From the NCBI RefSeq assembly GCF_000341105.1, contig NZ_ANBB01000050.1, positions 62,001 to 126,000 of the forward strand: 64,000 bases of DNA, written 5' to 3'. Source of the stretch: Nocardiopsis potens DSM 45234 (lineage in GTDB: Bacteria; Actinomycetota; Actinomycetes; Streptosporangiales; Streptosporangiaceae). The notes beneath the pieces are model-generated. The model saw nothing but the letters and a program-made list of their open reading frames with translations, did not search any database and had not been told where the DNA came from. The position numbers were made by a program, and so were the translations under genes. Of this stretch, positions 34,663 through 60,073 are shown in pieces. How positions within the stretch are numbered: the stretch's first letter is position 1; every line of letters starts with the position of its first letter.

Positions 34663-34664
34663 GC

Positions 34665-39141: not shown

Positions 39142-39163
39142 ACCTGTGCGCGGTGGTCCGCCT

Positions 39164-39886: not shown

Positions 39887-39937
39887 GTAGAGTTCTGCAA
39901 TAGCTTTCGCCTACGAAGTAGAGTTTTCTTTCGCTAG
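39887..39937. promoter_or_regulatory. Direct-repeat operator candidate upstream of the WhiJ-like gene
   Basis: GTAGAGTTCT...CTTTCGC (39887-39910) is repeated as GTAGAGTTTTCTTTCGC from 39918, just before ATG 39947. This AT-rich stretch stands out and probably includes the promoter and XRE sites. Confidence 0.45.
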
Positions 39938-39946
39938 GGTTCTCCC

Positions 39947-40810
39947 ATGACCACTCCCCACAGCCCCACGCTCCGGCTCCGCCGGCTCGCGGCCATGCTG
40001 CGCCGAGCCCGCGAACGGGCCGGCTACACCACCTCCCAGGTAGGCGCGAAGTTCAAGTGGAGTGCGGGCAAGGTCTCCAAGATGGAGACCACCGAGACCA
40101 AGCGGATCAGCCCGAATGATCTCGACAGGCTCATGGACCTCTACGGCGTCACCGATCAGGCGGAGCGCGAGGGGATGCAGGCGCTGGCCCGGGATGCTCG
40201 GCAGCGCGGCTGGTGGTCCAAGTACAAGAAGGTCTTCTCGGACCACGCCCTGCCCGACTTCGAGGCCGAAGCATCCCTCATCCGCACCTTCGAGGCCCAG
40301 ATCGTCCCAGGGCTCCTGCAGACACCTCAGTACGCTGAGGCGCTGCTCAAAGGCGGCCGCTACACCGACCCCGAAACGGTTCGGCAGAAGGTGGAGGCGC
40401 GTATGGCCCGGCGGGACATCCTCACCCGTCCCGAGCCGGCCCGCCTGCGAGCGGTCATCGACGAAGCCGCGCTCCGGAGGCCGATCGGCGGTACCGAGAC
40501 GCTGCGTGGGCAGCTGGCGCACCTGCTCTACATGGCGCAGCTGCCCAACATCGACGTCCAGGTCCTGCCTTTGGACGCCGGGGCGCACGCTGCTCTAGGG
40601 GCGCCGTTCACTCTCCTGGACTTCCCCGATCCCCTCGATCTCCCGATCGTCTACATCGACACCGCAGGCGAAGGGGTGTTCCTGGAGGACCCGGAAGAGG
40701 TCGAAGCCCACAGTGCTACCTTCGGCGATATCCAAGGATCCGCGCTGAGCACCACGCGCTCCGCCGCCGTCATCACCGACCTCCTCAGAGCACCAGAGAG
40801 CGAATCATGA
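39947..40810 (+). CDS. WhiJ-like XRE regulator (DUF5753)
   Basis: A 287-aa protein. The XRE HTH (LRRLAAMLRRARERAGYTTSQVGAKFKWSAGKVSKMET) is followed by DUF5753 (EAEASLIRTFEAQIVPGLLQTPQYAEALL, RRDILTRPEPARLRAVIDEAALRRPIGG, FTLLDFPDPLDLPIVYIDT). In Streptomyces such proteins (WhiJ, AbaA-OrfA) pair with DUF397 partners and modulate development and antibiotic production. Its stop overlaps the DUF397 start by ATGA, so the two are translationally coupled. Confidence 0.92.
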   Translation: MTTPHSPTLRLRRLAAMLRRARERAGYTTSQVGAKFKWSAGKVSKMETTETKRISPNDLDRLMDLYGVTDQAEREGMQALARDARQRGWWSKYKKVFSDHALPDFEAEASLIRTFEAQIVPGLLQTPQYAEALLKGGRYTDPETVRQKVEARMARRDILTRPEPARLRAVIDEAALRRPIGGTETLRGQLAHLLYMAQLPNIDVQVLPLDAGAHAALGAPFTLLDFPDPLDLPIVYIDTAGEGVFLEDPEEVEAHSATFGDIQGSALSTTRSAAVITDLLRAPESES

Positions 40811-41115
40811 GTGCCGACCTGACGTTCCGCAAGAGCAGCTACAGCGCCCACTCGCAGAACTGCGTGGAAGTGGCATCCTTCCCTGACTTCCGGAAGAGCA
40901 GCTACAGCGCACAGGATCAGAACTGCGTGGAAGTGGCCTCCTCCGACTATCGGAAGAGCAGCCACAGTGCACAAGACCAGGACTGCGTCGAAGTCGCCGA
41001 CTCCTCCCACGCCGTTGCCATCCGTGACTCCAAGCACGCCGAGGCCGGCCACCTCGCCTTCTCTTCGGCGGAGTGGGACGCTTTTCTGAGAGGGGCCAAG
41101 GCCGGCGGCTTCTGA
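40807..41115 (+). CDS. DUF397 protein with triplicated motif
   Basis: A 102-aa protein. The DUF397 N-terminal signature, normally present once, appears three times in tandem: FRKSSYSAHSQNCVEVAS, FRKSSYSAQDQNCVEVAS and YRKSSHSAQDQDCVEVAD. It is followed by the usual end VAIRDSKHAEAGHLAFSSAEWDAFLRG. The DNA units begin at 40825, 40888 and 40948. It acts with the upstream WhiJ-like protein, possibly as antagonist or toxin-like partner. Confidence 0.9.
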   Translation: MSADLTFRKSSYSAHSQNCVEVASFPDFRKSSYSAQDQNCVEVASSDYRKSSHSAQDQDCVEVADSSHAVAIRDSKHAEAGHLAFSSAEWDAFLRGAKAGGF

Positions 41116-41135
41116 CGTGGTCGGAGCGGGGCGCT

Positions 41136-41567
41136 CTATCGGTTCCGCCTGCTCCTGACGAGGTCGGCGACGTGTTCGGCGGCGATGGTCGGATCCTCGT
41201 GTTCCCACACGCGGACGACCTGCCAACCCTGTTCCGTCAGTAGCCGGTTGGTCTCCTCGTCCCGTTCTCGGTTGCGCCTCACCTTTTCGGCCCAGTAACC
41301 GGCGTTGGTCGCCGATTTCGTATGGTGTTCGGGGCAACCGTGCCAGAAGCAACCGTCGAGGAAAACGGCGACCTTGACACGGGTGAACACCATGTCCGCC
41401 GTTCTTCTGATGGCCGGTTCCGGACGGATGGACACGCGATAGCGCAGCCCCAGAGCGTGCACCGCCCGGCGGAGGGCCAGTTCGGGTTTGGTGTCCCTCC
41501 CCTTGTTGGACTGCATGCTCTTCCGTACACCGGGACTGGAGGCACTGGTCGGCCGGGGAGCGCTCAT
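41136..41567 (-). CDS. vsr: Very short patch repair endonuclease (Vsr)
   Basis: A 143-aa endonuclease. NKGRDTKPELALRRAVHALGLRYRV, the metal-binding Asp in IRRTADMVF, VKVAVFLDGCFWHGCPEHH and the C-terminal WEHEDP are the Vsr fold. Vsr nicks next to T:G mismatches created by deamination of 5-methylcytosine, so it accompanies cytosine-5 methyltransferases. Two such homologs lie just beside it, divergently. ATG 41567 is chosen (GTG 41573 possible); no Shine-Dalgarno is seen, so the mRNA may be leaderless. Confidence 0.92.
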   Translation of the reverse strand: MSAPRPTSASSPGVRKSMQSNKGRDTKPELALRRAVHALGLRYRVSIRPEPAIRRTADMVFTRVKVAVFLDGCFWHGCPEHHTKSATNAGYWAEKVRRNRERDEETNRLLTEQGWQVVRVWEHEDPTIAAEHVADLVRSRRNR

Positions 41568-41663
41568 GAGCACACCGTACTAAGAGGGCGCACCGGGGAG
41601 CATACGATCGGTTTCCGGGAACGGGAAGCAGGGGCGCGGTTCGTGGAAGAGGAGTCGACCTCG

Positions 41664-42671
41664 GTGCGGTTCAGAAGTCTGGATGTGTACGCGGGAGCGG
41701 GAGGACAGGCGCTCGGTTTGGAACGGGCCGGCTTCGATCCGGTGATGCTCATCGACGACGACGCCCATGCCTGCGCCACGCTGCAGGTGAATCGCCCGAA
41801 CTGGGACGTCCGCCGTACGGATCTTCTGGAGTTCGTCGGGAGCGACCACCCTCAGGTGTTGGACGTGGACCTTTTGGCGGCGGGGCCTCCTCGGATGAGG
41901 TTCTCTCGCGCCGGTAAGAGGAACCGCCCGGAGAGCGAGGACCGGGACACCTGGAAGGCCGTCGTGTGGTTGGCCTTGGAGGTGTCCCCGCGCGCGCTCC
42001 TCATGGAGAACGTTCCGCACCTGGTCAGAGAAGAGGCGTTCGCCGAGGTCAGAGCCTTCACCGAGGAGGAGCTGGAGAGGGCCGGATACCGGTGTTCATG
42101 GCGGGTGCTGGACGCTCGGTACTTCGGCGTCCCGCAGTGCCGTGAGCACGGCGTCCTGGTGGCGCTCAAGGACGACGGCATGGAGAGGTTCTCCTGGCCC
42201 GAGCCCGGGTCGGACGCCCCGGTCCTCGGAGATGTGCTGTACCCCTCCATGGCGAGTCGGGGATGGCCGCAGGCCGACGAATGGGCGGCGGGTGCGAACG
42301 AGGTCGCCCCCACCATCGTCGGAGGGGCGACGGGGCGAGGGGGAGCCGACCTCGGCCCGAGCGGCAGCAAGAGGAAGTGGGCGCGTCTCGGCGTGAACGG
42401 TGGGAGCATCGGCGACGAGCCGCCGGGGCCGGACTTCGTCATGGTCCGACCGGAGGACCCGGGAGACGCCCAGGCCAGGAAGGCGCTGCCCAAGCTGACC
42501 ACCGATCAGGTCAAGGTGCTGCAGGGGTTTCCGCAGGACTGGCGCCTCGAGGGCGGCAAGACGTCGGGGTACAGGCAGGTGGGACACGCGCTGCCGCCCC
42601 CGCTGGCATGCGCGTTGGGAGAGCGGATCGCCATCGCCCTGGAGAAACCGGAGACGGATCGGCACTCCTGA
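41664..42671 (+). CDS. C5-cytosine methyltransferase homolog lacking the catalytic Cys
   Basis: A 335-aa protein from GTG 41664, with AGAGGAG upstream. Motif I (LDVYAGAGGQALGLERAGF), motif VI (LLMENVPHL, ENV at 115-117), motif VIII-like QCREHG and motif X-like GHALPPPLA are present. Motif IV, normally GPPCQ, reads G74-P-P-R77-M78, so the nucleophile Cys is Arg and the Gln is Met. The rest of the frame is intact, with no stop or frameshift. It could be a non-catalytic DNA-binding or regulatory partner of the intact enzyme downstream. Confidence 0.85.
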   Translation: MRFRSLDVYAGAGGQALGLERAGFDPVMLIDDDAHACATLQVNRPNWDVRRTDLLEFVGSDHPQVLDVDLLAAGPPRMRFSRAGKRNRPESEDRDTWKAVVWLALEVSPRALLMENVPHLVREEAFAEVRAFTEEELERAGYRCSWRVLDARYFGVPQCREHGVLVALKDDGMERFSWPEPGSDAPVLGDVLYPSMASRGWPQADEWAAGANEVAPTIVGGATGRGGADLGPSGSKRKWARLGVNGGSIGDEPPGPDFVMVRPEDPGDAQARKALPKLTTDQVKVLQGFPQDWRLEGGKTSGYRQVGHALPPPLACALGERIAIALEKPETDRHS

Positions 42672-42764
42672 GGCGGGGGAGAGGCGAGGAACCAGGGTCG
42701 CGATCAGGTAGAGATCACGGGTCGTGAAGCGGAAGGGGGTGGAGAGCCCCGTTAGGATGACGCC

Positions 42765-43979
42765 ATGTCCGCCGCTTCCATCGATCCCATCAACATCGTC
42801 GACCTCTTCGCCGGCTGCGGCGGCTTCACCCAGGGGTTTCACGAATTCGTACCGGACGGTGCCTCGGAGTCACCGTTCCGGACCGTCGGCGCCGTCGAGT
42901 GGGACAAGGCGGCGGCCGCCACTTATGCGCAGAATTTCGCGAAAGAGGCCGGTGGGATAGAGAAGATCTTCGCCGGCAACATCAAGGATTGGAATCCGGG
43001 TGACGTCAACGCCGATGTTCAGGTGATTCTCGGCGGCCCACCCTGCCAGGGGTTCTCCGGGCTGGGCAAGGAGAACCCCGAAGACCCGCGGAACAAGCTC
43101 TGGCAAGAGTACGTCCGAGTGGTCGAGAAACTCAGCCCTGAGATCTTCGTCATCGAGAACGTGGACCGCTTCTTCAAGTCAGTGGAATATGCCGCACTGC
43201 TGAAGGCGCTGGACGGCGGCCCGCTGGCGGAGTATGAGATCAGCGGAGGCCACCTGGTCGCGGCCGATTACGGATCCCCGCAGACGCGGAAGAGAACCAT
43301 CGTGATCGCGACGCATAAGGACATCATCAAGGCCCATCCCACGCGGCGACCGATGGCACACCCTACACCGACCCATATTGAACCGGCCGACACGGACGGA
43401 ACCCTCTGGGAAGAAGAGACGGGCTTGCTCCCCTGGAATCCGGCGAGCGAAGTATTCGGACGCCCGGGAAATCCGAACCCTCTGGTTCCCGAAGAGACGC
43501 CATCCACTGAGCTGCCGATGGGGAAGGTGGAGTTCTCTGGAAAAATGTTCCCCGGGGCTTTCCGGACCGATCAGCTCCACATTGGGCGCAATCCCACCGA
43601 TCTTTCTCTTGAGAGATATGAGAGCATCCCTCCTGGGGGCAATCGGTGGGACATCCCGGACCGCATTTCCACGAAAAGCTGGCTGAATCACCGGAACGGC
43701 TCGGGTGACGTCATGGGGCGGATGCACCTCGACCGGCCGTCGGTCACCATCCGGACCGAGTTCTACAAGCCGGAGAAGGGGCGCTATCTGCACCCCTGGG
43801 CGCACCGCCCCATCACCCACCTCGAAGCCGCGCTGATCCAGGGCTTCCCCCGGGATTTCCTGTGGTGCGGAAGCAAGACCCAGATCGCCCGACAGATCGG
43901 CAACGCGGTCCCGGTGGACCTCTCGCGCGCGATCGCGAAACAGGTGTACGAGTACCTGAGAGAGGTCAAGCGGTCGTAG
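42765..43979 (+). CDS. DNA (cytosine-5-)-methyltransferase
   Basis: A 404-aa enzyme. Motif I NIVDLFAGCGGFTQGF, motif IV GGPPCQGFSG (Cys94), motif VI FVIENVDRF, motif VIII SPQTRKR and motif X IGNAVPVDL are intact, with a target-recognition region of ~150 residues between VIII and X. It would methylate cytosine within a defined sequence, marking self DNA. A C5 methyltransferase (DrmMII) is a component of class 1 DISARM. It is convergent with, and overlaps by 14 bases, a three-gene leftward operon. Base composition is visibly AT-richer here, especially 43300-43700. Confidence 0.93.
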   Translation: MSAASIDPINIVDLFAGCGGFTQGFHEFVPDGASESPFRTVGAVEWDKAAAATYAQNFAKEAGGIEKIFAGNIKDWNPGDVNADVQVILGGPPCQGFSGLGKENPEDPRNKLWQEYVRVVEKLSPEIFVIENVDRFFKSVEYAALLKALDGGPLAEYEISGGHLVAADYGSPQTRKRTIVIATHKDIIKAHPTRRPMAHPTPTHIEPADTDGTLWEEETGLLPWNPASEVFGRPGNPNPLVPEETPSTELPMGKVEFSGKMFPGAFRTDQLHIGRNPTDLSLERYESIPPGGNRWDIPDRISTKSWLNHRNGSGDVMGRMHLDRPSVTIRTEFYKPEKGRYLHPWAHRPITHLEAALIQGFPRDFLWCGSKTQIARQIGNAVPVDLSRAIAKQVYEYLREVKRS

Positions 43980-44871
43980 AGCCGCCTTCTCCCTCCTCGT
44001 CCTCCTTCTCCTTGTCCTTCTCACGTCCTCGGACCGGGGCCTCGGCGAACAGTCGCTCGAAGAGTGATGCCAGGGCGGCGACCGAATCCGGGTAGGTGCG
44101 TCCGTCGTCGGGGCCGTCCGGGAGGCGGTCGTAGGGGGTGAAATCCTCGTCGCCGGCCGCGATCCAGTCGTGGTAAGGAGCGGGGTCGGGAGAGGAGTCG
44201 GGGGCGATCGCCTCGAACGCGATCGTGCTGCCGGCGCTGTTCACCGCCTTCCCGAGGGCGTTGATCTCGCGTCCACCCTGGACCGCGCCCTTCGAGATCA
44301 GCGAGATGATCGCCTGTGCGGTCGGCCGATGAAGGACGGTCTCGAATCGGAGGATCGAGTTCAACACGTCCTGGTCCTTACAGGCCGTCACCACCGGTCG
44401 GTAGTCGAAACCGTCCCGGAAGAGTTCCGCCGCCCACCACAGGCGGGCGAACGCCTGGGTGTGGAACGGTCCGCAGAAACGTTTCGCGTTGATGGTCGGT
44501 ACAGGTTTCTTCTCGGTCGGTTTCGCGAGATGCCGTCGGCGGACGTAGTCGGGGGCGACACGGAGGGCGAGGTGATTCCACAGACCGCTTTCGGCGGCCT
44601 CGCGGCGGGTGATGCGCAGGGTGGAGTGAAGGCGCGGGGCCAACCAGGCGTCCGCGGCGGTGGCGGCGTCCTCCTCGAAGCGGGCCATGGCCTCGTTCAG
44701 CAGGTCACGGACCCGTTCCGTCTCCCAGCGGGCCTCATCCGGAAGCTCCTTCGAGGCCTGGTCGAGGGCGGCGGCCGGAGGACGCTCGTCACCTCGGAGG
44801 ATCCCGGAGGTGAGGTGCTTCACCGCGATCTCGTCGGGGAGGAGGGCGAAGCGTTTCGGAGTCGTGCTCAA
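43966..44871 (-). CDS. DUF6339-like protein (island component)
   Basis: A 301-aa protein, third in a leftward operon; ATG 44871 overlaps the upstream stop by ATGA. It is helical and basic in the middle (RVAPDYVRRRHLAKP, CGPFHTQAFARLWWAAELFRDGFDYRPVVTAC) with VETVLHRPTAQAIISL-type sequence, and it ends in a Lys/Glu-rich charged tail. From memory it resembles DUF6339, a family of unknown function; I see no catalytic motif. Its coupling to the HTH-GHKL gene implies a shared complex. Confidence 0.7.
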   Translation of the reverse strand: MSTTPKRFALLPDEIAVKHLTSGILRGDERPPAAALDQASKELPDEARWETERVRDLLNEAMARFEEDAATAADAWLAPRLHSTLRITRREAAESGLWNHLALRVAPDYVRRRHLAKPTEKKPVPTINAKRFCGPFHTQAFARLWWAAELFRDGFDYRPVVTACKDQDVLNSILRFETVLHRPTAQAIISLISKGAVQGGREINALGKAVNSAGSTIAFEAIAPDSSPDPAPYHDWIAAGDEDFTPYDRLPDGPDDGRTYPDSVAALASLFERLFAEAPVRGREKDKEKEDEEGEGGSTTA

Positions 44872-45836
44872 CGGGTCTCCTCGGAGGCGCGGCGGGTGGA
44901 ACGGATCAGGGCGCCGATGTTGCGATACTGCCGGGCCTGCAACGCGGCGGAGCGGCGGATCCGGTTCTGTAGATCACCGCCGCCCTCACCGGAACGGCAC
45001 CGTGCGACGGCCTCCTGAAGGGCCTCCCGGGGGGAGAGGTCGGGGAAGGCTCCCGGAAGGAGCTTCTTCAACACCCCTTCTCGCCAGCCGCCCGGCCATT
45101 CGGCGCGCTCGTCCTCATCGATCTCGGCGGCGAAGAGGGCGTCGTTGAACAGGGTGACCCAGGCGTCCTTGGCGATCTCCGACGCGATTGCCTCACGCAC
45201 CTCGCGTTCGGGGGCGCGTGCGTGCTTCAGGATCTCCTCCAGCCCTTCGACCTTGCGGTTGAGGTAGATCAACGGTTCCTGGCCGGTGGTCTCGACGTAC
45301 CAGGGGTCCTGGCGATAGTCGTGCAGGTGGGGGTTGGCCTCGTCGGAGAAGTCGGCCCAGGTCACCTTGATCGAGTTCTCCCGGGTCGGCGTCGTGGCCT
45401 GGAGATCGACCGTCCACGGAGCATCGACCCCCCCGATGATGCGTCCCGGAACGCCCCCGACGGTCGCGGTGATCTGTCCGCCGATCTGCACGCGCCCCAA
45501 GTGACGGTCGGCGAAGACGGTGATCTCCCCGACCCAGGAATCACCGTCCCGTTCCTTCAAGACGACGACGTCGCGCGTGTTCGTACGGCGCTCGAACGCG
45601 ATGACCTGCGGAAGCACCTCCCGCCAGTCGCCGTTCCGAAGCTCCTCGACCGGAGTCCGAAGGCGCACGGAGAGACGGGCCTCCCCCCACTTCTCGCGTT
45701 CCGCCCGGTGGAGGGCGACGGTGCGCTTCGACGGGGCCACCATCCTGTAGTCGAGCGGGACGCCGTCGAGCCGTACCTCCGTGATGTCCAGAGCGATCTC
45801 GCCGGCCAGGACGGGGTAAGGGACCAGACGCCTCAT
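44868..45836 (-). CDS. Unknown protein, middle gene of the leftward island operon
   Basis: A 322-aa protein from ATG 45836; both ends overlap neighbours by ATGA. The N-terminal ~190 residues are beta-rich (ITEVRLDGVPLDYRMVAPSKRTVALHRAER, ARLSVRLRTPVEEL, GRVQIGGQITATVGG). The C-terminal ~130 are helical (EILKHARAPEREVREAIASEIAKDAWVTLFNDAL). I do not recognise a family. The tight coupling to a GHKL ATPase and a DUF6339-like protein argues for a three-subunit unit. Confidence 0.75.
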   Translation of the reverse strand: MRRLVPYPVLAGEIALDITEVRLDGVPLDYRMVAPSKRTVALHRAEREKWGEARLSVRLRTPVEELRNGDWREVLPQVIAFERRTNTRDVVVLKERDGDSWVGEITVFADRHLGRVQIGGQITATVGGVPGRIIGGVDAPWTVDLQATTPTRENSIKVTWADFSDEANPHLHDYRQDPWYVETTGQEPLIYLNRKVEGLEEILKHARAPEREVREAIASEIAKDAWVTLFNDALFAAEIDEDERAEWPGGWREGVLKKLLPGAFPDLSPREALQEAVARCRSGEGGGDLQNRIRRSAALQARQYRNIGALIRSTRRASEETR

Positions 45837-47908
45837 CGCTCCTCCCCTCTTCCTCGTTCCAGATCGACCTCGACCATGGCCATGTCCGCTGCGACGGGGT
45901 GGTCGTTCACGTCGCTCACGCCCTCGAACGTCGCATGGCGCGCCCCCGGGTCGGATTCCAGGCGGTGCAGATCGCCCTCGGCGAGGACGCAGCCTCGGAC
46001 GGGGGTCAGGTCGGCCCAGGCGACCCTCGGGTGAGGGCCGGAGCGGGTGACGAATCTGAGGACGGGGCGGAACTCCCACGGATCCTTGCGTTCGGGGAAC
46101 CTGACCTCGACGCGCAGGCGCCAGGAGCCGTCCGCCCCGACCTCCCCGTCGATGTCCTGGACCGTCGGATGACCCGGACTGCGCGGTGGCGGCGGCGGGT
46201 CGAGGTTCAGCATGTCCTTGAGGACCTTGGGGGTCTCCTCGGCCGTGGCGACGACGGGACGGAGGACCTCCCGCAGCCGGTCGTTGACCGCCTTCCGGAA
46301 CTCCTTGATCCGGGTGGCCGCGCCACGGACATAGGTGGCGGTCAGGTCGTCGGTCGGTCGCCAGTCGTTGTGCTCCGGGGGTTCGGCGCTGCGCAGGAAC
46401 CTCTCCGCGGGCTCGGTCTCCTCGGTCGGGCCCTGTGTCGCGAGGCCCGCGAGGAGGATCGCCTCGAACGGCTCGGTGCCGAGCGGTACGTCGTAGAAGC
46501 GCCGATCCGTGAGGACCATGCGGTTGCCGCGCATCCACACGACGTGGTTGGGCCGTTCGGCGTCGGGAGAGGAGGAGGTCACCAGGAGCACGGCCTTGTG
46601 GGTGATCGAGACGGACGCCTTGTCGCCGCGCAGCGCCGGTACGGTGAGCGGGACCTCGGTGGCGATCACGTCCTCGGCGTTCGTCTTCTCGGTGACGGTG
46701 GTGCCGTTCAGGAAGGCGTTGATGGCCCGGGAGCGTGCGGGTTCGTACTCGTAGGGGTTCACCCGCTCCTCGGAGAGGACGTCGCCGTTGCGTCGGATCG
46801 CGACGGTCGCCTCCAACGGGGGGTGCTCGCCGGGGGAGTCTCCGGAGACCATCGACGGCCAGAAGCTGTGCGCCAGTCCGCTCACCAGCGATCGTTTGAA
46901 CTCCTCGAGGGAGCCCGCGTTGCCGGTGGCGTCGTGCGCCCCCACGATGAGGAAGGAGGTGCCCGGGGCGCTCCCCTCACGGGACAGGCGGAGCCGCGTG
47001 ACGGTCTCGTCGTCTCCCCACCAGGAGCGGGCCGCCCCGTCCCGGTTCGGGTCCTCACGCCCCAGCCAGGCCGGACCTGCGTAGGACCTTCCGTTCACGC
47101 TGTGCCAGGGCAGGTTCAAGCGGCCCATCAGGCGATTGCGGCGGTGTCCCTCGTAAGGCTCGGACAGGGAACTGTTGACCAGCACCAGGCCGAACCTGCT
47201 GGTGGACCAGAGGGTGGCCTTGCCGAGGCCGTAGGATCCACCGGCGGTCGCGGACTTCCGGCTGTCCAACTGGCGGCGGAGGACCGCGGCGAACTTCCCG
47301 TCCTCGTACTCGTCCCCGGTCAGGCCGGAGGCGTTGTAGTCCTCGATGCGGAGCAGGGTGAGGGCGTTCGTCTCCCGGAGCTCGTCCAGGCCGCTGCGCA
47401 GGACACGGCCGACCTTCTGCGCCCCTTCGATCGCGGCCTGGAAGTGCTCCTCCAGGTCGTGCCAGCGCAGGGCCTCGAGAAAGTCCCACAGGTGTTCGCC
47501 CTCGAGTTCCTCCAGCACGTAACGGACGTGCACCGGGCGGTCGGAGCTCAGGCGTTCGTCGAGGCTGTTCTGGGTCGCCTCGCGGGTCAACACCGCCGGG
47601 TCGCCGTCGAAGGCGAAGGCGGCGGTGTCCCCGTACTCCCGCCCCCCATCGGCGTGGCCCGGGCGGTGGTACCAGTGGACCGTCTCGAAATTGTCGGGGA
47701 TCTCGGTCCGGCTCGCGGACGATCCGGTGTCCAACCCGAAGAGCCGTTCGATCGCCTCGATCTTGTCCCGGCGGGGCTCGGCTCGTCCGGTGACCCAGGC
47801 GGACACCGCCGCTCGGGTCACCGAGAGCTCCGAGGCCAGTTCCGCCTGGCTCAAGCCGGCCCTGCGGAGCTGGCGTCCCAGCCATACGCCGAAGTCTTCT
47901 GCCGTCAC
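45833..47908 (-). CDS. XRE-HTH fused to a GHKL-type ATPase
   Basis: A 691-aa protein from GTG 47908 (GAGGAA upstream). Residues ~1-60 are an XRE HTH (FGVWLGRQLRRAGLSQAELASELSVTRAAVSAWVTGRAEP). A GHKL-like ATP site follows: N-box LTREATQNSLDERL, a second motif around LRIEDYNASGLTG, and a glycine lid GSYGLGKATLWSTS. A long C-terminal region of unknown fold ends the protein. The HTH can bind the palindrome at 47972-47996, 64 bases upstream, giving autoregulation. It is first gene of the leftward operon and divergent from the helicase operon. Confidence 0.8.
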   Translation of the reverse strand: MTAEDFGVWLGRQLRRAGLSQAELASELSVTRAAVSAWVTGRAEPRRDKIEAIERLFGLDTGSSASRTEIPDNFETVHWYHRPGHADGGREYGDTAAFAFDGDPAVLTREATQNSLDERLSSDRPVHVRYVLEELEGEHLWDFLEALRWHDLEEHFQAAIEGAQKVGRVLRSGLDELRETNALTLLRIEDYNASGLTGDEYEDGKFAAVLRRQLDSRKSATAGGSYGLGKATLWSTSRFGLVLVNSSLSEPYEGHRRNRLMGRLNLPWHSVNGRSYAGPAWLGREDPNRDGAARSWWGDDETVTRLRLSREGSAPGTSFLIVGAHDATGNAGSLEEFKRSLVSGLAHSFWPSMVSGDSPGEHPPLEATVAIRRNGDVLSEERVNPYEYEPARSRAINAFLNGTTVTEKTNAEDVIATEVPLTVPALRGDKASVSITHKAVLLVTSSSPDAERPNHVVWMRGNRMVLTDRRFYDVPLGTEPFEAILLAGLATQGPTEETEPAERFLRSAEPPEHNDWRPTDDLTATYVRGAATRIKEFRKAVNDRLREVLRPVVATAEETPKVLKDMLNLDPPPPPRSPGHPTVQDIDGEVGADGSWRLRVEVRFPERKDPWEFRPVLRFVTRSGPHPRVAWADLTPVRGCVLAEGDLHRLESDPGARHATFEGVSDVNDHPVAADMAMVEVDLERGRGEER

Positions 47909-48386
47909 ACCGTTCCTCGCCCTCACGCGGTCATCTCGGTCTCGGCTCGACCGAGCAGCGGGACCAGTGTGTTTGACAAGGGGGTGTGGTGTCAAATAAA
48001 AGTTGACGCCAGCTCGTGTGGAGCGGTGGAGTGCGAGGAGCGGGCGGGGTCCGTGGTGGGGTCCGACCATGTCTCAGGAGTCGTTCTGCAGGTGGGTCTC
48101 CGTTGAACGGCAAGGGGTGAGGCGAAGTGCAGGTCTTTTTCCTCGCGGGGGTTGCAGAAAAGGTTTCGAGGTGAAATTCTTGGGCTCCCCGCTCCGGGTG
48201 ACGGGATAAGGTGAAACCGTTCACTGGTTCCTCCTGTCGTTTCCGTTGCTCTCCTCGATTCGCTCGGCGACCGTCGTGTCCTTCCGTCGTGAGCGTCGAC
48301 CCGTGGGCGGGTGGCGTTCTCGACGTAGGGCGCCTCGGAGACGCCGTTTTCCGTGGTGGCTTTTTTCGTGTCGAGAAGGGTTCGAA
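47909..48386. other. Divergent promoter region of the island, 478 bases
   Basis: This separates the leftward HTH-GHKL operon and the rightward helicase operon. It contains the palindrome at 47972-47996, a TTGAC at ~48002, and a long untranslated leader (~48010-48386) before ATG 48387. The leader has no credible ORF and is richer in T runs than flanking DNA. Confidence 0.6.
47972..47996. promoter_or_regulatory. Probable operator of the defence island
   Basis: TTTGACA-N11-TGTCAAA is an exact inverted repeat in an AT-rich patch between the divergent operons. Each half contains a -35-like TTGACA on one strand, so a bound repressor would block both promoters. The XRE domain encoded 64 bases away is the natural ligand. 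Confidence 0.6.
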
Positions 48387-53078: not shown

Positions 53079-54970
53079 GCATCGAGAAGGACGGGGAGAG
53101 GCTCACTCCCGAACAGCGTTCCGTGGTCGAGCTGCCGGCCGACGCGTGCGCCCTCGTCACCGCGGGGGCGGGCGCGGGCAAGACCCACACCTTGATCCGC
53201 AGGCTGGACCTGCTGGTCGAGGAGGAGAGGCTCGCCCCGGACGAGATCCTGGTCCTCACCTTCTCCCGGGCCGCGGTGCGGGAGCTCAGGGAACGGCTCG
53301 GGGCGATCGACAGCGCCGCACGGTTCGTGCGGGCCCGGACCTTCGACTCCTGGGCCCTGGACCTCCTCCGGCAGGTGAAGGCGGAGGAGGACTGGGAGAA
53401 GCGCTCCTTCCGAGAGCGCATCGTCCGCGCCCGAGAGGCGATCGAGGAGGGGGCGGCCGAGGACCTCTACGGGCACGACCTGCGCCATGTCGTGATCGAC
53501 GAGGTCCAGGACCTCGTCGGGGAGCGTCGTGAACTGGTCGAGGTGCTGCTGGACGAATTCGACTGCGGCTTCACCGTCGTGGGGGACTCCGCCCAGTACA
53601 TCTATGGATTCACCGTTCCCGACGAGAGGGAACGGGCCGGGGAGGCCGATCGCTTTTCGACCTGGCTCAGGAACACGTTCGGCGATGACCTGGTGGAACC
53701 GCGCCTCACGGAGAACTTCCGCGCCCGCACCCCCGAGGCGAGGGTCGCCCTCCCCTACGGGGCGCGTCTGCAGGCGCTCTCCGAAGGGCGCGCCGACGAC
53801 GGGCGGAAGCTCTTCGAGGAGCTCAGGGACACCCTCCGCATGCGGGCCATGGACCTCGGCCGCCTCGACGAGCTGGCCTTCGACGCGCTCGGGTCCCACT
53901 CGGGCACGACCGCGATCCTCTGCCGGACCAACGGGCAGGCGCTGACGACGTCCGGAGAACTGGCGAAGGGCGGCGTCGCACACCGACTCCAGCGGGCCGC
54001 GACGGACAGGTCGGTCCCCGGGACGATCGCCCTGCTCTTCCGGGACGGAGGCGGGACCTTGATGAAGCGGAACCGGTTCGAGGAACTCGTGTCCGAGGCC
54101 GGTCTCGCTCCGGAGGAGGTCGACCGGCTGTGGCGGCTCCTGCGCCGTGGCGGCCGCGCACGCACCGGGGGAGAGGCCTTGGACCTCGCCGAGCTGCGCC
54201 GGGCCATCGCCGCCGGTGGTCTGCCCGACGAGTTGACCGCTCCCCCGCCGGCGGACCTGGTCGTCTCCTCCTTCCACCGGGCGAAAGGACTGGAGTTCGA
54301 CCGGGTCGTGGTGGTCGACCCGGGGGAACCCTGGGGGGACGGCGATCACGCGGAGGACGCTCGAGCGTTGTACGTGGCGATGACCCGCCCTCGAGAGGAA
54401 CTGCTGTGGCTCCCGACCGAGAAGTGGACCTCCGTTCTCAAGGACCGCGCGGTCGGCAGGTGGGCCAGGTACGGACCCAAGGGGCGGCGCGGCCGGCAGA
54501 GGTTCGGTCTGGAGATCGACGGGCGTGACGTGCACACCGACCATCCGGCCGGCGCACGGGTCGTCGAGGGGGATCCGCTCGCGCTCCAGGAGTACCTGGA
54601 GAGGGAGGTCCGGCCGGGGGACGAGGTCGCTCTGGTCCGGGACACCCCGGTCGCCTTCGAGCCGGACATGAGCCCGGACTACCGGGTGATGCACCGGGGC
54701 AGGGCGATCGGCATCGTCTCCGACCGCTTCAGGCGCGATCTCCTGCGCCTCGTCGGGCGGCCCGGAGGACGGGATCCCAGGTGGCCGGTGCGGATCACCG
54801 ACGTGCGGGTCGACACGGTGGAGACCGTGGTCGGCAGTGAGGCCGCCGGGAGCAGGGCCGGGCTGGGAGGGCACGGGGTCTGGTCGGCCCCCCGCCTCAT
54901 CGGCCTGGGGAGATTCGAATGGGAGAGGGACGTGATGGAAGAGGAGGCCGCCGTTGTCCAGGCACGCTGA
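53075..54970 (+). CDS. UvrD/Rep-like helicase
   Basis: A 631-aa superfamily-1 helicase. Q-motif-like LTPEQRSVVELPAD, Walker A AGAGAGKTHTL (K36), VVIDEVQDL, GDSAQYIYGF, LTENFRARTPEA, SSFHRAKGLEFDRVVVVDPG and ARALYVAMTRPREELLWLP cover motifs I to VI. The last ~140 residues (GRQRFGLEIDGRDVHTDHP...DTPVAFEPDMSPDYRVMHRGRAIGIVSD) form a small beta-rich domain I cannot name. It is coupled by 4-base overlap upstream and 17-base overlap downstream. Confidence 0.9.
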   Translation: MSIEKDGERLTPEQRSVVELPADACALVTAGAGAGKTHTLIRRLDLLVEEERLAPDEILVLTFSRAAVRELRERLGAIDSAARFVRARTFDSWALDLLRQVKAEEDWEKRSFRERIVRAREAIEEGAAEDLYGHDLRHVVIDEVQDLVGERRELVEVLLDEFDCGFTVVGDSAQYIYGFTVPDERERAGEADRFSTWLRNTFGDDLVEPRLTENFRARTPEARVALPYGARLQALSEGRADDGRKLFEELRDTLRMRAMDLGRLDELAFDALGSHSGTTAILCRTNGQALTTSGELAKGGVAHRLQRAATDRSVPGTIALLFRDGGGTLMKRNRFEELVSEAGLAPEEVDRLWRLLRRGGRARTGGEALDLAELRRAIAAGGLPDELTAPPPADLVVSSFHRAKGLEFDRVVVVDPGEPWGDGDHAEDARALYVAMTRPREELLWLPTEKWTSVLKDRAVGRWARYGPKGRRGRQRFGLEIDGRDVHTDHPAGARVVEGDPLALQEYLEREVRPGDEVALVRDTPVAFEPDMSPDYRVMHRGRAIGIVSDRFRRDLLRLVGRPGGRDPRWPVRITDVRVDTVETVVGSEAAGSRAGLGGHGVWSAPRLIGLGRFEWERDVMEEEAAVVQAR

Positions 54971-57900
54971 GCATTACGCCTTCCGGGGCGAACTGAAGGA
55001 CCGGCTGCGCCGGGACCTGCTCGGTCCGGTCGGGGGCGAGAACGAGGTCATCGGCGACGACCCGGTGACCGCCTACCCCGTCGGCGTGCTCTTCCCGCAG
55101 AGGGCGTCGGACGAGGACGAGCAGGAGACGATCGCCGCCCGGGACGACGAGGCCGAGGACGCCGCCGCGGGGCGGGACGAGGACATGGACGGCGGGGTCT
55201 CACTGGCGAACGTCAAGGCCCCCTCCGCGATGGGGATGACCTTCGCGGTGAGCCCTTTCCTGGCCTCCGCGATCACGCTGCGCGTGACGGCGGCCGTCTA
55301 CGAGTCGGTGGACGCCGACGGCGTTCCGGTGAGGGCCGAACGCGCGGAATGGCGTACGACCTCGGAGCGGCAGGTGTTCTGGCGTAGGCGACCGCTGGAG
55401 ACCAGGACGTTCGAAGTGGATCTCACCGCCGGGGAGAAGGCCCCCGAGGTCGTCGACTCCGGCCTCGAACTGAGGGTGCTGATCCGCCCGTCGGCTCGCG
55501 GAGAGACCGCCCTCGCGGTGACCGCGACCCTGGTCAACGTCAACCGGGTCGCCAAGGGGGAGCTGTCGGACCCGTACTGCTACTTCCAGGCCGGGATCGA
55601 GGCGATCGGTCCGGACGGCCGGGAGGTCTTCGTCGAGCGGACCGTCCCGGTCGGGGCGGACGACGCAGAGGTCAAGACGAATCGCCTGCTCTACCGGCAC
55701 GTTCCGACGTTCGCCGTGGGGCACGGCTGCGCGGCCGACTGGGACTGGGAGGCGCCGCCGCCCGGGGACCCGCGTCTTCTCGGCGCGAAGCCCGCGGCGG
55801 TCGCCGCGGTCAGGACGGCGCACGTTCCCAGCGCCGAAGTGCTGTTGATGGACTCCAACCCTCACATCGACGCCTCCGGTCTCGGGATGCTCCGTATCGC
55901 CGAGGCGCAGGACGAAGCCGTGATCGCGGGGCTGCGCGCCCTGGTGCGCGCCTATCGGGAGTGGATCGCGCAACGGTCCGAGGAGGCGCGCCTGTTGGAG
56001 GCGAACGCCGATCTGAGCGATGCCGCGGATGAACGGATCAAGGCGTGTCTGCAGGCCTGCGATCGGATGTCGGCCGGCGTCGACCTGCTCCGAGACGACC
56101 CCGACGTGATGACCGCCTTCCGCCGGGCGAACCGGGCGATGGCGGAGCAGAGGGCGCGTGCGGCATGGATCAAGAGAGGCCGACAGGGGGAGGTCGACCC
56201 GGGCTCACAGGATTGGCGCCCCTTCCAGATCGCCTTCATGCTCCTGTGCCTGCGCGGGATCGCCGATGACGAGCACGAGGATCGGGGGATCGCCGACCTG
56301 CTCTGGTTCCCCACCGGCGGTGGGAAGACCGAGGCCTATCTCGGACTGATCGCCTTCACCGCCTTCCTGCGTCGGAAGCGCAGAGGAGCGAAGGGGGGCG
56401 GCGTGACCGCGCTCATGCGCTACACGCTGCGCCTGCTCACCCTGCAACAGTTCCAGCGGGCCGCCGCGCTCATCTGCGCGATGGAACGGATCCGTTCGAA
56501 GAACCCCGCCGAACTGGGCGAGGAGCCCGTCTCCCTGGGCATGTGGATCGGCGGCTCCAGCACGCCGAACACGCTGAAGAGGGCGGCCCAGAGCCTGAAG
56601 GAGAAGCGCAATGGAAAGGAACTGCAGGAGCAGGACCCCGTTCAGCTGCGCGCGTGCCCTTGGTGCGGAACCGAGATGGACGCGTTCGACTACGAGGTCG
56701 AGGCGGATCTGACCCGGATGCGCATCCGGTGTCCTTCGGCGGACTGCGAGTTCCACCGGGGACTGCCGGTGCACGTGGTCGACGATGAGATCTATCGGGT
56801 CCGCCCCACGCTGATCATCGCGACCGTGGACAAGTTCGCGCAGATCGCCTGGCGACCGCAGGTGGCCGCGTTGTTCAACCGGGACAAGGACGACGGGGTC
56901 CCTCCCCCCGATCTCATCGTGCAGGACGAGCTGCACCTGATCTCCGGTCCGCTGGGCAGTCTCACCGGCCTGTACGAGACCGCGGTCGACATCGCGGCGG
57001 ACAAACCGAAGGTCATCGCGTCCACCGCGACCATTCGGCGTGCGAAGGAGCAGGGCGAGGCCCTGTTCGATCGGGAGGTGCACCAGTTCCCGCCGCAGGG
57101 GTTGGACGCACGGGACTCGTGGTTCGCCGTGGAGGCGCCGGCGGAGAAGAAGGCCTCACGGGAGTATGTCGGGCTGCTGGCCCCCAACACCAGCCAGGCG
57201 ACGCTCCTGGTGCGCGTTTACGCGGCCCTGCTGCACCACGCCCGAGCGATCGAGGCGGACGACGGGGCACGGGACCCCTACTGGACGCTGCTCGGCTATT
57301 TCAACAGCCTGCGCCTGCTGGCGGCGGCGGACCTCCAGGTCAACGACGACGTGCAGGATCGGCTCCGGCAACTCGCCGAACGCGACGGGAGCGAGCCGAG
57401 GGAGGTGGAGATCCCCACGGAGTTGACCAGCAGGGTGAAGGCGAGCGACATCCCGGAACGGCTCCGTCAGCTGGACCGCCGTTTCCCCGATTCCGACGCC
57501 ATCGACACCCTGTTGGCGACCAACATGATCTCGGTCGGCGTGGACATCGACCGCCTGGGTCTGATGGCGGTCATGGGGCAGCCGCAGACGACCGCCGAGT
57601 ACATCCAGGCGACCAGCAGGGTGGGCCGTGGTCACCCGGGACTGGTGGCGGTGCTCTTCAACGCGGCGCGTTCCCGGGACCGGTCGCACCATGAGAGCTT
57701 CGCCTCCTACCACGCGGCGTTGTACCGACAGGTCGAATCGTCCAGCGTCACCCCCTTCTCGGCCCGGGCGCGCGACCGGGGGCTGCACGCGGTTCTCGTC
57801 GGACTGGCGCGCCTGCTGCATCCGGGACTGAGGATGAACGCGGACGCCGCGAGGGTCGGCGAGTTCGAGAAGGAGATGGAGGAGATCGTCGACCTGATCC

Positions 57901-58160
57901 TCCTCCGGGTGAAGGGGACCGCCGAGGGGGAGTACGAGGAGACGGAGGAGGACCTGCAGTACGTCCTCGACGAGTGGCGGGAGATGGCCGAGGACGACCC
58001 AGACCTGCTGTACGAGGCGCCTCCTCGTCGTCACGGGCGCCGTGAGAACGGTTCGGCCCTGCTCAGGACGCATTCCGACGAGGACCTCACGGACGCGTTC
58101 AGCACCCTGTGGAGCCTGCGCGACGTGGACGTCGAATCCGATCTCTACCGGGAGCGCTGA
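54954..58160 (+). CDS. drmA: DrmA-like DISARM helicase
   Basis: A 1068-aa protein. TTG 54954 is used as start because GAGGAGG lies 5 bases upstream. The N-terminal YAFRGELKDRLRRDLLGPVGG and PVGVLFPQ resemble DISARM DrmA. The helicase core has FPTGGGKTEAYL (K458), QDELH (D658-E659), STATIRR, TNMISVGVDIDRLG and QATSRVGRG, plus a four-Cys insertion (CPWCGTEMD...CPSADCEFH) of zinc-finger type. In DISARM, DrmA pairs with DrmB to sense and block incoming phage DNA. It overlaps the UvrD gene by 17 bases and is followed 3 bases later by drmB. Confidence 0.82.
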   Translation: MSRHAEHYAFRGELKDRLRRDLLGPVGGENEVIGDDPVTAYPVGVLFPQRASDEDEQETIAARDDEAEDAAAGRDEDMDGGVSLANVKAPSAMGMTFAVSPFLASAITLRVTAAVYESVDADGVPVRAERAEWRTTSERQVFWRRRPLETRTFEVDLTAGEKAPEVVDSGLELRVLIRPSARGETALAVTATLVNVNRVAKGELSDPYCYFQAGIEAIGPDGREVFVERTVPVGADDAEVKTNRLLYRHVPTFAVGHGCAADWDWEAPPPGDPRLLGAKPAAVAAVRTAHVPSAEVLLMDSNPHIDASGLGMLRIAEAQDEAVIAGLRALVRAYREWIAQRSEEARLLEANADLSDAADERIKACLQACDRMSAGVDLLRDDPDVMTAFRRANRAMAEQRARAAWIKRGRQGEVDPGSQDWRPFQIAFMLLCLRGIADDEHEDRGIADLLWFPTGGGKTEAYLGLIAFTAFLRRKRRGAKGGGVTALMRYTLRLLTLQQFQRAAALICAMERIRSKNPAELGEEPVSLGMWIGGSSTPNTLKRAAQSLKEKRNGKELQEQDPVQLRACPWCGTEMDAFDYEVEADLTRMRIRCPSADCEFHRGLPVHVVDDEIYRVRPTLIIATVDKFAQIAWRPQVAALFNRDKDDGVPPPDLIVQDELHLISGPLGSLTGLYETAVDIAADKPKVIASTATIRRAKEQGEALFDREVHQFPPQGLDARDSWFAVEAPAEKKASREYVGLLAPNTSQATLLVRVYAALLHHARAIEADDGARDPYWTLLGYFNSLRLLAAADLQVNDDVQDRLRQLAERDGSEPREVEIPTELTSRVKASDIPERLRQLDRRFPDSDAIDTLLATNMISVGVDIDRLGLMAVMGQPQTTAEYIQATSRVGRGHPGLVAVLFNAARSRDRSHHESFASYHAALYRQVESSSVTPFSARARDRGLHAVLVGLARLLHPGLRMNADAARVGEFEKEMEEIVDLILLRVKGTAEGEYEETEEDLQYVLDEWREMAEDDPDLLYEAPPRRHGRRENGSALLRTHSDEDLTDAFSTLWSLRDVDVESDLYRER

Positions 58161-58163
58161 AGG

Positions 58164-60038
58164 ATGACGATGCGAGAGGGCCGCGGCCGTCGAGGGCGCG
58201 AGGAGCGGCGTGGACGCCGACGGACGAGCGACGTGTCGAGGGAGCCGTTGGGCCGTGTGCGGCGTGGCCAGATGATCACCACCTACGGGGTGGGGGCGAT
58301 GGTCGCGATCGGGGACAGGTCCTACATCGTCACCGGCATCGACCACTGGAACGTGGACGCCGAGAAGTTCGCGATCCACGAACCCCGACTGCAGCACCAG
58401 CTCAAGGTGAAGGGGTTCCGCCTCCCCCCGGCCTGGGACGAGCCGGCGGGGGACGGGGTCCGGGTCCGGCTCTTCCCCGAGATCCACTCGTGCCCCGAGT
58501 GCCACCGTCTTCAGGAGTATCGGCGGTTCGGCGCGGATCGGGACGGCCGCTGCGGCGGCTGTGGAAGGACGCTGGTCCCCTCACGGTTCGTGGTCGCATG
58601 CGAGAACGGGCATCTCGACGAGTTCCCCTACTACGAGTGGGTGCATCGCAAGACCGACGGCGAGACGGTGAGCGGTGACGGGCACAGGCTGAGCCTGCAC
58701 ACCACCGGGCGGACGGCCTCGCTGCGGTCGATCGTCGTCGAATGCTCGTGCGGGAAGAAGGCCTCCCTGGAAGGGGCCTTCGGCAAGAGCGCGATGAAGC
58801 GGATCTCCCTGCGGTGCAGCGGCGCGACTCCGTGGCTCGGGCGGGACGCCCGGGAGGAGGGGTGCCAGGCGACGCCGAGGACCCTTCAGCGAGGCGCCTC
58901 CGCAGCGTGGTTCCCGGTGTACCGGTCCGCGCTCTCGATCCCACCGTGGTCGCAGAGCATGCACAAACGGCTGAACGCCGACTACCCGATGTTGAAGCGG
59001 CTGTTGCAACTCGACCCGAGCGGGAAGGAGGCCATCGACTCCATCCGGGAGAAGGGACTGTTGAAGGAGGGAGCCGATCCGGAGAGCCTGCTCGCGGCGC
59101 TGCGGGAACGGATCGAAGACGAGGAGCGCGCCTCCGTGGAGGACCCGGAAGAGGCCGACGCATCGGTGATCGAGGTCGGAGGCAGGGTCCGCGAGGAGGA
59201 GTACGCCCAGCTCTCCGAGGGCACCGACCACGTGGAGCGGGGGGACGAGTTCGAGTGCGTCCGCCCACCCGAGGTGCCGGGCGTGCAGAGGCCCCCGAAG
59301 ATCGGCGGGGTCATGCTCGCCAAACGGCTCCGGGAGGTCCGTGCCCTGGAGTCCTTCACCCGGGTGATCGCGCCGGACGAGGGCATGGAATCGGTGCGTC
59401 TGGCGTCGATCTCGGGCGAGGAGATGGACTGGCTGCCGGCCATCGAGGTGAGCGGCGAGGGCGTCTTCCTCACCTTGGACCAGGAGGCCCTGAGGACATG
59501 GGAGAAGGGGGAGGGGCCGCGCCGGCGCGCGGATCTGCTCCGCGAGCGTCACCTGGGCGTACTGCGCAGGCGTGCGGAGGAGGCCGGTGAGACGAGGACG
59601 CCGAGAACTCCGGTGAGTCCCCGTTTCGTCCTCCTGCACACCCTCTCCCACATGCTCCTCAACGAGTGGAGCCTGGACGCCGGCTACCCGGCCTCGGCTC
59701 TGCGGGAGCGTCTCTACGTCGGGCCCGACATGGCGGGGATCCTCATCTACACCGCCACCAGCGACTCGGCCGGCAGTCTGGGCGGCCTGGTCGCGCAGGG
59801 GCGGTACGACCGTCTGACGACGAGCCTGCACGGGGCCCTGGGGCGGCACCGTTGGTGCTCACAGGACCCGACGTGCATGGAGTCGCATGCGAGCGGGGTG
59901 GACGGCCTGAACCTCGCCGCCTGCCACGCCTGTGTGCTGCTGCCGGAGACCAGCTGCGAGAACAACAACCTGTTCCTGGACCGGGCGATGGTCGTCGGAA
60001 CGCCGGAGGCCCCCTCGATCGGGTTCTACGGGGAATGA
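58164..60038 (+). CDS. drmB: DrmB-like protein (DUF1998)
   Basis: A 624-aa protein. Early RGQMITTYGVGAMVAIGDRSYIVTG, Cys pairs CPEC (110, 113) and CGGC (130, 133), CENGHLDEFPYYEW, a CSCG pair and C-terminal LLHTLSHMLLNEWSLDAGYPASALRERLY with WCSQDPTC and CHAC reproduce DUF1998/DrmB. It has no helicase motifs and in known DISARM forms a DNA-binding complex with DrmA. It begins 3 bases after the drmA stop and ends at a terminator shared with the convergent kinase-FtsK gene. No DrmC phospholipase gene follows. Confidence 0.85.
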   Translation: MTMREGRGRRGREERRGRRRTSDVSREPLGRVRRGQMITTYGVGAMVAIGDRSYIVTGIDHWNVDAEKFAIHEPRLQHQLKVKGFRLPPAWDEPAGDGVRVRLFPEIHSCPECHRLQEYRRFGADRDGRCGGCGRTLVPSRFVVACENGHLDEFPYYEWVHRKTDGETVSGDGHRLSLHTTGRTASLRSIVVECSCGKKASLEGAFGKSAMKRISLRCSGATPWLGRDAREEGCQATPRTLQRGASAAWFPVYRSALSIPPWSQSMHKRLNADYPMLKRLLQLDPSGKEAIDSIREKGLLKEGADPESLLAALRERIEDEERASVEDPEEADASVIEVGGRVREEEYAQLSEGTDHVERGDEFECVRPPEVPGVQRPPKIGGVMLAKRLREVRALESFTRVIAPDEGMESVRLASISGEEMDWLPAIEVSGEGVFLTLDQEALRTWEKGEGPRRRADLLRERHLGVLRRRAEEAGETRTPRTPVSPRFVLLHTLSHMLLNEWSLDAGYPASALRERLYVGPDMAGILIYTATSDSAGSLGGLVAQGRYDRLTTSLHGALGRHRWCSQDPTCMESHASGVDGLNLAACHACVLLPETSCENNNLFLDRAMVVGTPEAPSIGFYGE

Positions 60039-60044
60039 CGTCGG

Positions 60045-60068
60045 CGGGGCCGCCTGGGGGCGGCCCCG
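60045..60068. terminator. Bidirectional hairpin
   Basis: CGGGGCCGCC-TGGG-GGCGGCCCCG, a 10-bp perfect stem, fills the 35-base gap between convergent drmB and kinase-FtsK stops. Confidence 0.75.
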
Positions 60069-60073
60069 CTCCG

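Follow-up and report, generated by a model that had tools for sequence, protein, structure and literature searches.

Here, we describe a locus of ten genes at 41.1-60.0 kb of the window, that is, of the 64-kb stretch of the 6.9-Mb genome of Nocardiopsis potens DSM 45234 that was analysed. The locus comprises vsr, two C5-methyltransferase genes (MT1 and MT2), three leftward genes, and a rightward operon of four genes ending in drmA and drmB, and we hold with moderate confidence that it forms a mobile anti-phage system, DISARM-type but in a class of its own, to which a second, reader-like module is added. The island is a DISARM variant that fits no known class and carries a reader-like accessory module; the anti-phage function and the sensing are predicted from sequence comparison, an antiviral role being suggested because DrmA and DrmB are present and the region behaves as an island. 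All ten genes lie where the initial annotation had placed them, and profiles confirm its assignments of Vsr, both C5-methyltransferases, a DUF6339 protein, a GHKL protein fused to a superfamily 2 helicase (GHKL-SF2), a UvrD-like helicase, DrmA, and DrmB. Open reading frames (ORFs) were called mechanically, so the gene ends given for the loci are approximate.

A DISARM variant that fits no known class

The two genes that close the rightward operon belong to the DISARM family by NCBI profiles and by their match to the solved Serratia DrmAB complex. The first, drmA (54954..58160, forward strand), encodes a YprA-family SF2 helicase (NF038325, 1023.8 bits, cut-off 950; PDB 7s9v_A, 7.5e-174), and the second, drmB (58164..60038, forward strand), a DUF1998-type protein with MZB (NF038324, 479.3 bits, cut-off 240; PDB 7s9v_B, 1.2e-75); with these matches, one can set aside the concern that either might be a member of a housekeeping family. 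They are preceded by the gene for a sacsin-type GHKL protein fused to a RadD-like SF2 helicase (48387..53078, forward strand; NF047352, 67.2 bits, cut-off 50), which has both ResIII and Helicase_C above cut-off and more likely starts at the ATG at 48387 than at 48246, and by that for a UvrD/GajB-like superfamily 1 (SF1) helicase (53075..54970, forward strand; PF00580, 95.1 bits, cut-off 23; GajB, 3.2e-26). In alignments of 75-76 rows, the N-box, glycine boxes, GxGKT, and DEAH of the former and the Walker A and DExQD motifs of the latter are conserved, and a nuclease in the UvrD-like C-terminus is not borne out by the conserved residues, which contain no PD-(D/E)xK-like pattern.

The company that these genes keep was assessed in several sets of loci, which overlap (some genomes are common to several) and whose counts hold per set. 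One pattern scan that used the GHKL-SF2 protein as query yielded at least 76 loci (L054-L129). It reaches no further than close relatives, and the loci were taken with as much as 10 kb of flank on either side (some with less); this set cannot measure how often DrmA occurs without GHKL-SF2. All of its names are actinobacterial, with Streptomyces supplying many, and we take the genera to belong to Actinomycetota. In support of the initial annotation, the parts co-occur across many Actinomycetota, with the order and strand of GHKL-SF2, UvrD-like, DrmA, and DrmB preserved in 75 of the 76 loci (L125 is broken). When searched at 1e-20, the GHKL-SF2 protein matched in 34 of 150 genomes, and along most of its length in 23 (its own included). 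An order-level set chosen by the same protein (23 loci, 22 genomes of the order) has DrmA and DrmB throughout (23/23) and the UvrD-like gene in 20; in the other three (L051-L053), a NERD-SF1 helicase relative replaces it. Anchoring on DrmA instead, with weak matches kept in and the window's own DrmA left out, gave 28 loci, which come from 27 genomes among 296 of the phylum: ten of the DrmMI type, five with NERD-SF1, two with GHKL-SF2 and UvrD, two of a sigma/helicase type, one with UvrD and no GHKL-SF2, one with DrmC only, and seven others.

Like DISARM class 1 (DrmD, DrmMI, DrmA, DrmB, and DrmC), the locus has DrmA, DrmB, a DNA methyltransferase, and an island setting; unlike it, it has GHKL-SF2 and UvrD, and the profiles for DrmD, DrmMI, and DrmC (the last a thin one, of three sequences) have no match in the part of the window past 38 kb, which agrees with the earlier proposal of a distinct DISARM relative. 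Nor did we find an ORF with two HKD motifs, and a PADLOC comparison of the ten proteins gave no DrmC match. Across the 76 loci, DrmD-like proteins occur in three, a DrmMI-like protein in one, and a match to the DrmC profile in one (L060), which is doubtful because that ORF matches DrmD more strongly. By its scores (DruM2 299.9, MTase_II 245.6, DrmMII 138.5), MT2 is a C5-methyltransferase but not of the DrmMII subfamily. DrmE has no PADLOC match among the window proteins, and the hypothetical protein at the DrmE position of a DrmMII locus is likewise without one. Ofir et al. in 2018 are said to have marked class 2 by drmE and drmMII and class 1 by drmD and drmMI. The initial annotation had assigned a C5 methyltransferase and drmE to class 1, which is not supported: in annotated plasmid loci, drmA is preceded by drmD and by a gene of the MmeI type or for a DNA methyltransferase.

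A DrmA tree likewise sets the window apart from class 1. It holds 73 rows (26 of the 76 loci, L051-L053, the window, and 43 of the 45 loci L130-L174, that is, without L136 and L172) and comes from a quick search with Shimodaira-Hasegawa-like approximate likelihood-ratio (SH-aLRT) support only; long rows, above all L162, may be misplaced. The window falls within a 31-row clade (SH-aLRT 100) in which a UvrD-like gene is near all rows and GHKL-SF2 near 29; class 1 loci group elsewhere (15 rows, support 93), and a further group of 18 rows (96) contains NERD-SF1 and sigma/helicase loci together with a DrmMII locus. The occurrence of GHKL-SF2 with L051-L053, inside that 18-row group, argues for a functional tie to DrmAB. 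UvrD adjoins DrmAB outside the window's clade too, in four Rhizobium, Shinella, and Azospirillum rows (UvrD and NERD) that branch apart.

These last rows belong to the plasmid loci in which an SF1 helicase adjoins DrmA-DrmB as it does here (UvrD in Rhizobium, Azospirillum, Shinella, and Tsukamurella; NERD-SF1 in Rhodococcus and Deinococcus), several of them with a C5-methyltransferase and Vsr. Unlike the locus in the window, they show neither GHKL-SF2 nor the module that begins with a helix-turn-helix (HTH) and GHKL-like protein, their Rhizobium/Azospirillum/Shinella DrmA branch lies outside the window's clade, and a NERD nuclease domain is present in all three that were scanned with Pfam. Two further plasmid arrangements were seen in passing. 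In Tsukamurella (L130, 6735-8129), a RelA/SpoT-domain protein stands immediately before UvrD-DrmA-DrmB, and in Streptomyces (L132, 8117-11938, with relatives L156 and L158), DrmA-DrmB stands between a large sigma-70-like protein (upstream) and a small helicase (downstream).

The island itself (38535..62299, no strand assigned) is delimited by collinear flanks in the same-genus genome G056, which matches window positions 30919-38534 and 62300-63918 at 89-91% identity; the inner match ends (window 38534 and 62300) are separated there by about 685 bp, an empty site. Some 23.8 kb are thus present in the window and missing from G056, as a mobile island. Its G+C content is below that of the left flank (mostly 0.62-0.74 from 39.0 kb onward versus 0.76-0.83 at 37.0-38.5 kb), and the GHKL-SF2 protein has no match in the four same-genus genomes searched. 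It is very improbable that the island is a non-antiviral one, serving DNA repair or plasmid-transfer control: UvrD, RadD-like, and Vsr proteins do perform repair elsewhere, and against this stand the patchy distribution, the lack of a match for the second module protein (protein B) in five same-genus genomes searched, the empty site, and a DrmA match at the full DISARM cut-off.

Other features of the window and host can be noted here. Within the island, a protein kinase fused to an FtsK/SpoIIIE domain (60074-62134) has relatives near 8 of the 76 loci, and a DUF5753-HTH regulator with a DUF397 partner (39947-41115) adjoins vsr. Outside the island, window positions 18001-20000 are an outlier in composition (G+C 0.805, AT skew 0.354). 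The host also has a separate class 1 DISARM-like locus with DrmD, DrmMI, DrmA, DrmB, and a DrmC-like protein (contig C3 of the same genome, G000, 158200-178100; L143).

The divergent module and its dead methyltransferase

HTH-GHKL-like, protein B, and the DUF6339 protein form a second module beside the operon, encoded leftward. The first gene (45833..48070, reverse strand) has HTH_31/HTH_3 and a partial match to PDC-M33A of PADLOC (1.8e-21). Searches with Pfam and PDB profiles recognize the HTH alone; we call the protein GHKL-like from that partial match and from conserved motifs (REATQNSLDE, DYNASGLTG, and GGSYGLGKA). The second, unnamed protein B, is best read as 44868..45836 (reverse strand), with the longer ORF being an extension made by the mechanical caller. 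It has no PADLOC family at E 10, and its predicted structure has N-terminal strands and C-terminal helices (predicted local distance difference test, pLDDT, 89; predicted template-modelling score, pTM, 0.56), with a single Foldseek match below E 0.001 (9.5e-4, TM 0.23) and weak resemblances to beta-sandwich folds. The third (43966..44871, reverse strand) encodes the DUF6339 protein (PF19866, 48.2, cut-off 23.2; PDC-M33C, 2.3e-7), predicted to be all-helical (pLDDT 92, pTM 0.88) and without a PDB match at E<=0.001. Its R-x5-H pattern raises the idea of a HEPN RNase, which is a weak possibility, the predicted all-helical fold having no PDB match at that threshold. The module partly resembles the PADLOC candidate PDC-M33 through the PDC-M33A and PDC-M33C matches and differs from it in a middle protein without PADLOC match, an added HTH, and an associated dead methyltransferase. 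The names TmtA, PDC-M33, and DUF6339 returned nothing relevant in the literature searched.

Overlapping gene ends, which the initial annotation had described for nearly all of these genes, are found at four junctions (three same-strand overlaps of 4 bp, and 17 bp between UvrD and DrmA). The ends of GHKL-SF2 and B have been revised, DrmA and DrmB are separated by a gap of 3 bp, and the overlap of vsr with MT1 is probably an ORF artefact, since the MT1 domain begins near residue 117 of the ORF that starts at 41322.

Between the two operons lies a divergent promoter region (48071..48386, no strand assigned). A count of 8-mers in 47 such regions gave CTTTGACA and CTGTCAAA in 16 each, where the maxima of 20 block shuffles were 10-14. 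This is a weak signal, the 8-mers may be -35 boxes, and the window's own region is unremarkable; a shared operator is at most weakly suggested.

MT1 (41670..42671, start approximate, forward strand; TIGR00675, 121.9, cut-off 100.65) is a catalytically dead C5-methyltransferase with an NgoMIV/NaeI-type recognition motif, a loss that the initial annotation had overlooked. The PPC of motif IV has become PPR and the second Arg of motif VIII is lost (we take this Arg and the motif IV Cys to be needed for catalysis), and the Glu of ENV and the GGADLGPS motif are retained. MT2 (42765..43979, forward strand; TIGR00675, 159 bits, cut-off 100.65) has intact catalytic motifs (GGPPCQGFS and ENV). In 44 MT1 rows, the motif IV position is R in 38, S in 5, and C in one (L104, which is of another subfamily and was excluded from the MT1 correlations). 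Among all fetched loci, 92 rows reach at least 300 bits and 86 of them (72 distinct sequences) have R or S; the second motif VIII Arg occurs in none of the 86, the motif VI Glu is kept in 85, and GGxDLGP is present in 77. All six Cys rows have GGxDLGP too, and the remaining methyltransferases that were scored lack it. The six Cys rows are L042 and four plasmid genes (one found twice, as L174 and L177) beside NgoMIV-family, NaeI-family, or HNH genes. One of them, on a Rhodococcus plasmid, shares a locus with DrmAB and Vsr and lacks the second module, which is a hint to the origin of MT1. NgoMIV and NaeI have the specificity GCCGGC, and from the conserved recognition motif we predict a GCCGGC-like target for MT1. 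At 42% identity, MT1 resembles the annotated methyltransferase encoded next to an NgoMIV-family endonuclease gene, and it has the recognition motif in common with M.NgoMIV/M.NaeI-type enzymes; unlike them, it has lost the Cys required for catalysis as well as the second Arg of motif VIII.

The dead enzyme goes with the module. In the 76-locus set, it occurs in 42 of 48 loci with the module versus 0 of 28 without it (Fisher 2.7e-15, an optimistic value since related loci are not independent), and in a second set of 46 loci found via protein B and viewed over up to 20 kb, it occurs in 35. Median dN/dS (ratio of nonsynonymous to synonymous substitution rates; pairs in parentheses) is 0.172 for MT1 (65), 0.115 for MT2 (14), 0.176 for DUF6339 (76), 0.161 for B (83), and 0.153 for DrmA (181); the low value for MT1 argues that the gene is maintained under purifying selection and is not decaying.

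One might ask whether dead MT1 is a regulatory partner of the intact methyltransferase, setting its site choice or activity, as DNMT3L is a regulatory partner of DNMT3A. An intact C5-methyltransferase is indeed present in all 42 loci that hold dead MT1, and MT1 and MT2 diverge together (r 0.77, n=14) and both track the core; the intact partner, however, varies in subfamily (that of Streptomyces loci is other than MT2), and in 24 of the 28 loci that lack the dead enzyme, an intact one stands by itself. We consider such a partnership unlikely.

Co-inheritance of the parts

The module travels with the operon, and Vsr is the loosest part. HTH-GHKL, protein B, and DUF6339 are found in 48, 47, and 46 of the 76 loci, respectively, and in 46 of the 48 loci with HTH-GHKL, that gene and GHKL-SF2 are arranged head to head. 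In the set anchored on protein B, all three module genes occur in 46/46 loci, of which 33 adjoin GHKL-SF2, UvrD, and DrmA and 5 adjoin NERD-SF1, DrmA, and DrmB, another DrmA class. At the level of the phylum, protein B was matched in 2 of 396 genomes; for the order, the count is 20 of 297 (both counts include its own genome), and for the family of G320, it is 41 of 297. Correlations of identity matrices over all available loci, with locus sets that differ between genes, are 0.95-0.98 among the operon genes; between the operon and the module they are 0.91-0.96, and for MT1, MT2, and Vsr they are 0.88-0.91, 0.65-0.71, and 0.56-0.58, respectively. On 34 identical loci, the core correlates with the module at 0.94-0.97, with MT1 at 0.90, and with Vsr at 0.75, and on the nine loci that hold everything, the values are 0.75 for MT1, 0.77 for MT2, and 0.43 for Vsr.

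Vsr proteins repair T:G mismatches that arise by deamination of 5-methylcytosine. The gene (41136..41573, reverse strand; TIGR00632, 129.9 bits, cut-off 97.85) encodes a protein with D27, E31, D60, H78, and H83 at 97% or more, residues that we take to be functional. The initial annotation had offered, as one possibility, that Vsr was integral to the system; its presence in 57 of 76 loci and its loose correlation speak otherwise and fit an exchangeable companion of C5 methylation, and the best reading of Vsr is as the mismatch-repair protein that usually accompanies such methylation.

The idea that the two GHKL proteins form one unit is likewise poorly supported: HTH-GHKL was not seen in 28 of 76 operon loci, nor was DrmA, over up to 20 kb, in 8 of the 46 module loci (L186 lies at a contig end). 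The same counts favour two independent defence systems that travel together because defence genes cluster, namely a DISARM variant with the intact methyltransferase and Vsr, and a stand-alone PDC-M33-like system with dead MT1, and PADLOC does keep M33 as separate candidate models. Set against this are the 38 of 46 module loci that adjoin DrmA, of two DrmA lineages (tree placement: L155), the correlation of 0.94-0.97 on identical loci, and the head-to-head arrangement; we regard two separate systems as a possible account of low probability.

A number of points weigh against a single system with a reader subunit, beginning with the DrmA-less module loci just mentioned. Of eight large ORFs from the seven other than L186, most belong to ordinary families (DEAD helicase, ATP-grasp, penicillin-binding protein, transporter, oxidoreductase, regulator), and the one from L206 has no family match; in L217 (Streptomycetaceae, 1207-16000), a Z1-domain protein and a C5-methyltransferase-like ORF replace DrmAB beside the module and MT1. 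Within the DNA available, dead MT1 is unseen in 6 of 48 module loci of the 76-locus set and in 11 of 46 of the module-anchored set, 9 of the 86 dead rows are without GGxDLGP, and L042, a full locus, keeps the motif IV Cys (its motif VIII Arg is absent). On the 14 loci with both methyltransferases, the core tracks MT2 (0.86) better than MT1 (0.78), so a tighter linkage of the dead enzyme is unsupported, and species ancestry inflates all of the divergence correlations. No dedicated nuclease is recognized in the locus besides Vsr, and the open-licence literature searched contained no report of phage assays on this class.

Proposed mechanism and relation to known systems

For the locus as a whole, we envisage a DISARM-type system in which the intact C5-methyltransferase (MT2, or the other subfamily in Streptomyces loci) would mark host DNA and Vsr would mend the mismatches that follow from deamination. 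DrmA-DrmB would bind and travel along incoming DNA that is unmarked or has a 5' single-stranded end, as has been reported of the Serratia complex, which is described in sections of PMC9142583 as having an ATPase stimulated by unmethylated DNA and as preferring 5' single-stranded overhangs. GHKL-SF2 and the UvrD-like protein, standing in place of DrmD or nuclease-helicases, may be extra ATP-driven gates or motors that unwind or strip DNA. The divergent module would provide site recognition, with dead MT1 binding its GCCGGC-like target and the HTH-GHKL-like ATPase, B, and DUF6339 responding to it, either by signalling to the motors or by producing an effect of their own. A bolder reading, of low probability, is that a dead site-specific MT1 is a conserved reader subunit that, with the GHKL-like ATPase module, licenses DISARM-type motors, and that sensing and motor attack are separable and exchangeable. 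As no nuclease but Vsr is recognized, damage would need blocking, unwinding, or a host nuclease. The same sections of PMC9142583 report that DrmC is dispensable, and describe as open how DISARM destroys DNA without it and what roles the less conserved parts play.

An older prediction comes close to part of this gene set. In 2008, restriction systems built from a GHKL ATPase, an SF2 helicase, a C5-methylase, and a Vsr-fold nuclease were predicted (PMC2292703, in the portion consulted), and all four are present here. The locus might accordingly be a MORC/paraMORC-type restriction-modification system that acquired DrmAB, in which GHKL proteins loop or clamp the DNA that lies between methylation sites, with cutting done by Vsr or a host nuclease; the Z1 protein in one module locus would fit. 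DrmAB and UvrD set the locus apart from those systems, no restriction endonuclease was recognized here, and the part that would cut, Vsr, is the loosest, so we rate this origin as rather improbable. A related GHKL system, with no DrmAB in view, was seen on an Arthrobacter plasmid (L136, 7182-17386), where genes for a C5-methyltransferase, a sacsin-type GHKL protein, an ATP-binding protein, and PD-(D/E)XK and Z1 proteins stand in a row.

The DISARM-type locus also resembles ARMADA type II as outlined in the main text of PMC12458937, through its YprA-family helicase and GajB-like helicase; it differs in that no BrxHII-like (DrmD) or PglX-like (DrmMI) match was found in the island with the related DrmD and DrmMI profiles, and in that DrmB is a separate gene. 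That main text, a survey of the YprA family, leaves GHKL/sacsin unmentioned and has UvrD only as ARMADA's ArmD. Neither this class nor a dead methyltransferase at a locus of this kind turned up in the open-licence literature searched.

The class joins several natural replacements in one locus, namely two GHKL-type proteins, an SF1 helicase, and an apparent reader of DNA sites that does not modify them, and it yields a predicted target sequence. On the bolder reading, sequence sensing and attack by DNA motors would be exchangeable parts of bacterial immunity, given that at least two DrmA lineages (and, at one locus, a Z1 protein) have the module beside them. Recognizing the class would also sharpen catalogues of defence systems, in which a search for DrmA and DrmB alone lumps it with classic DISARM.

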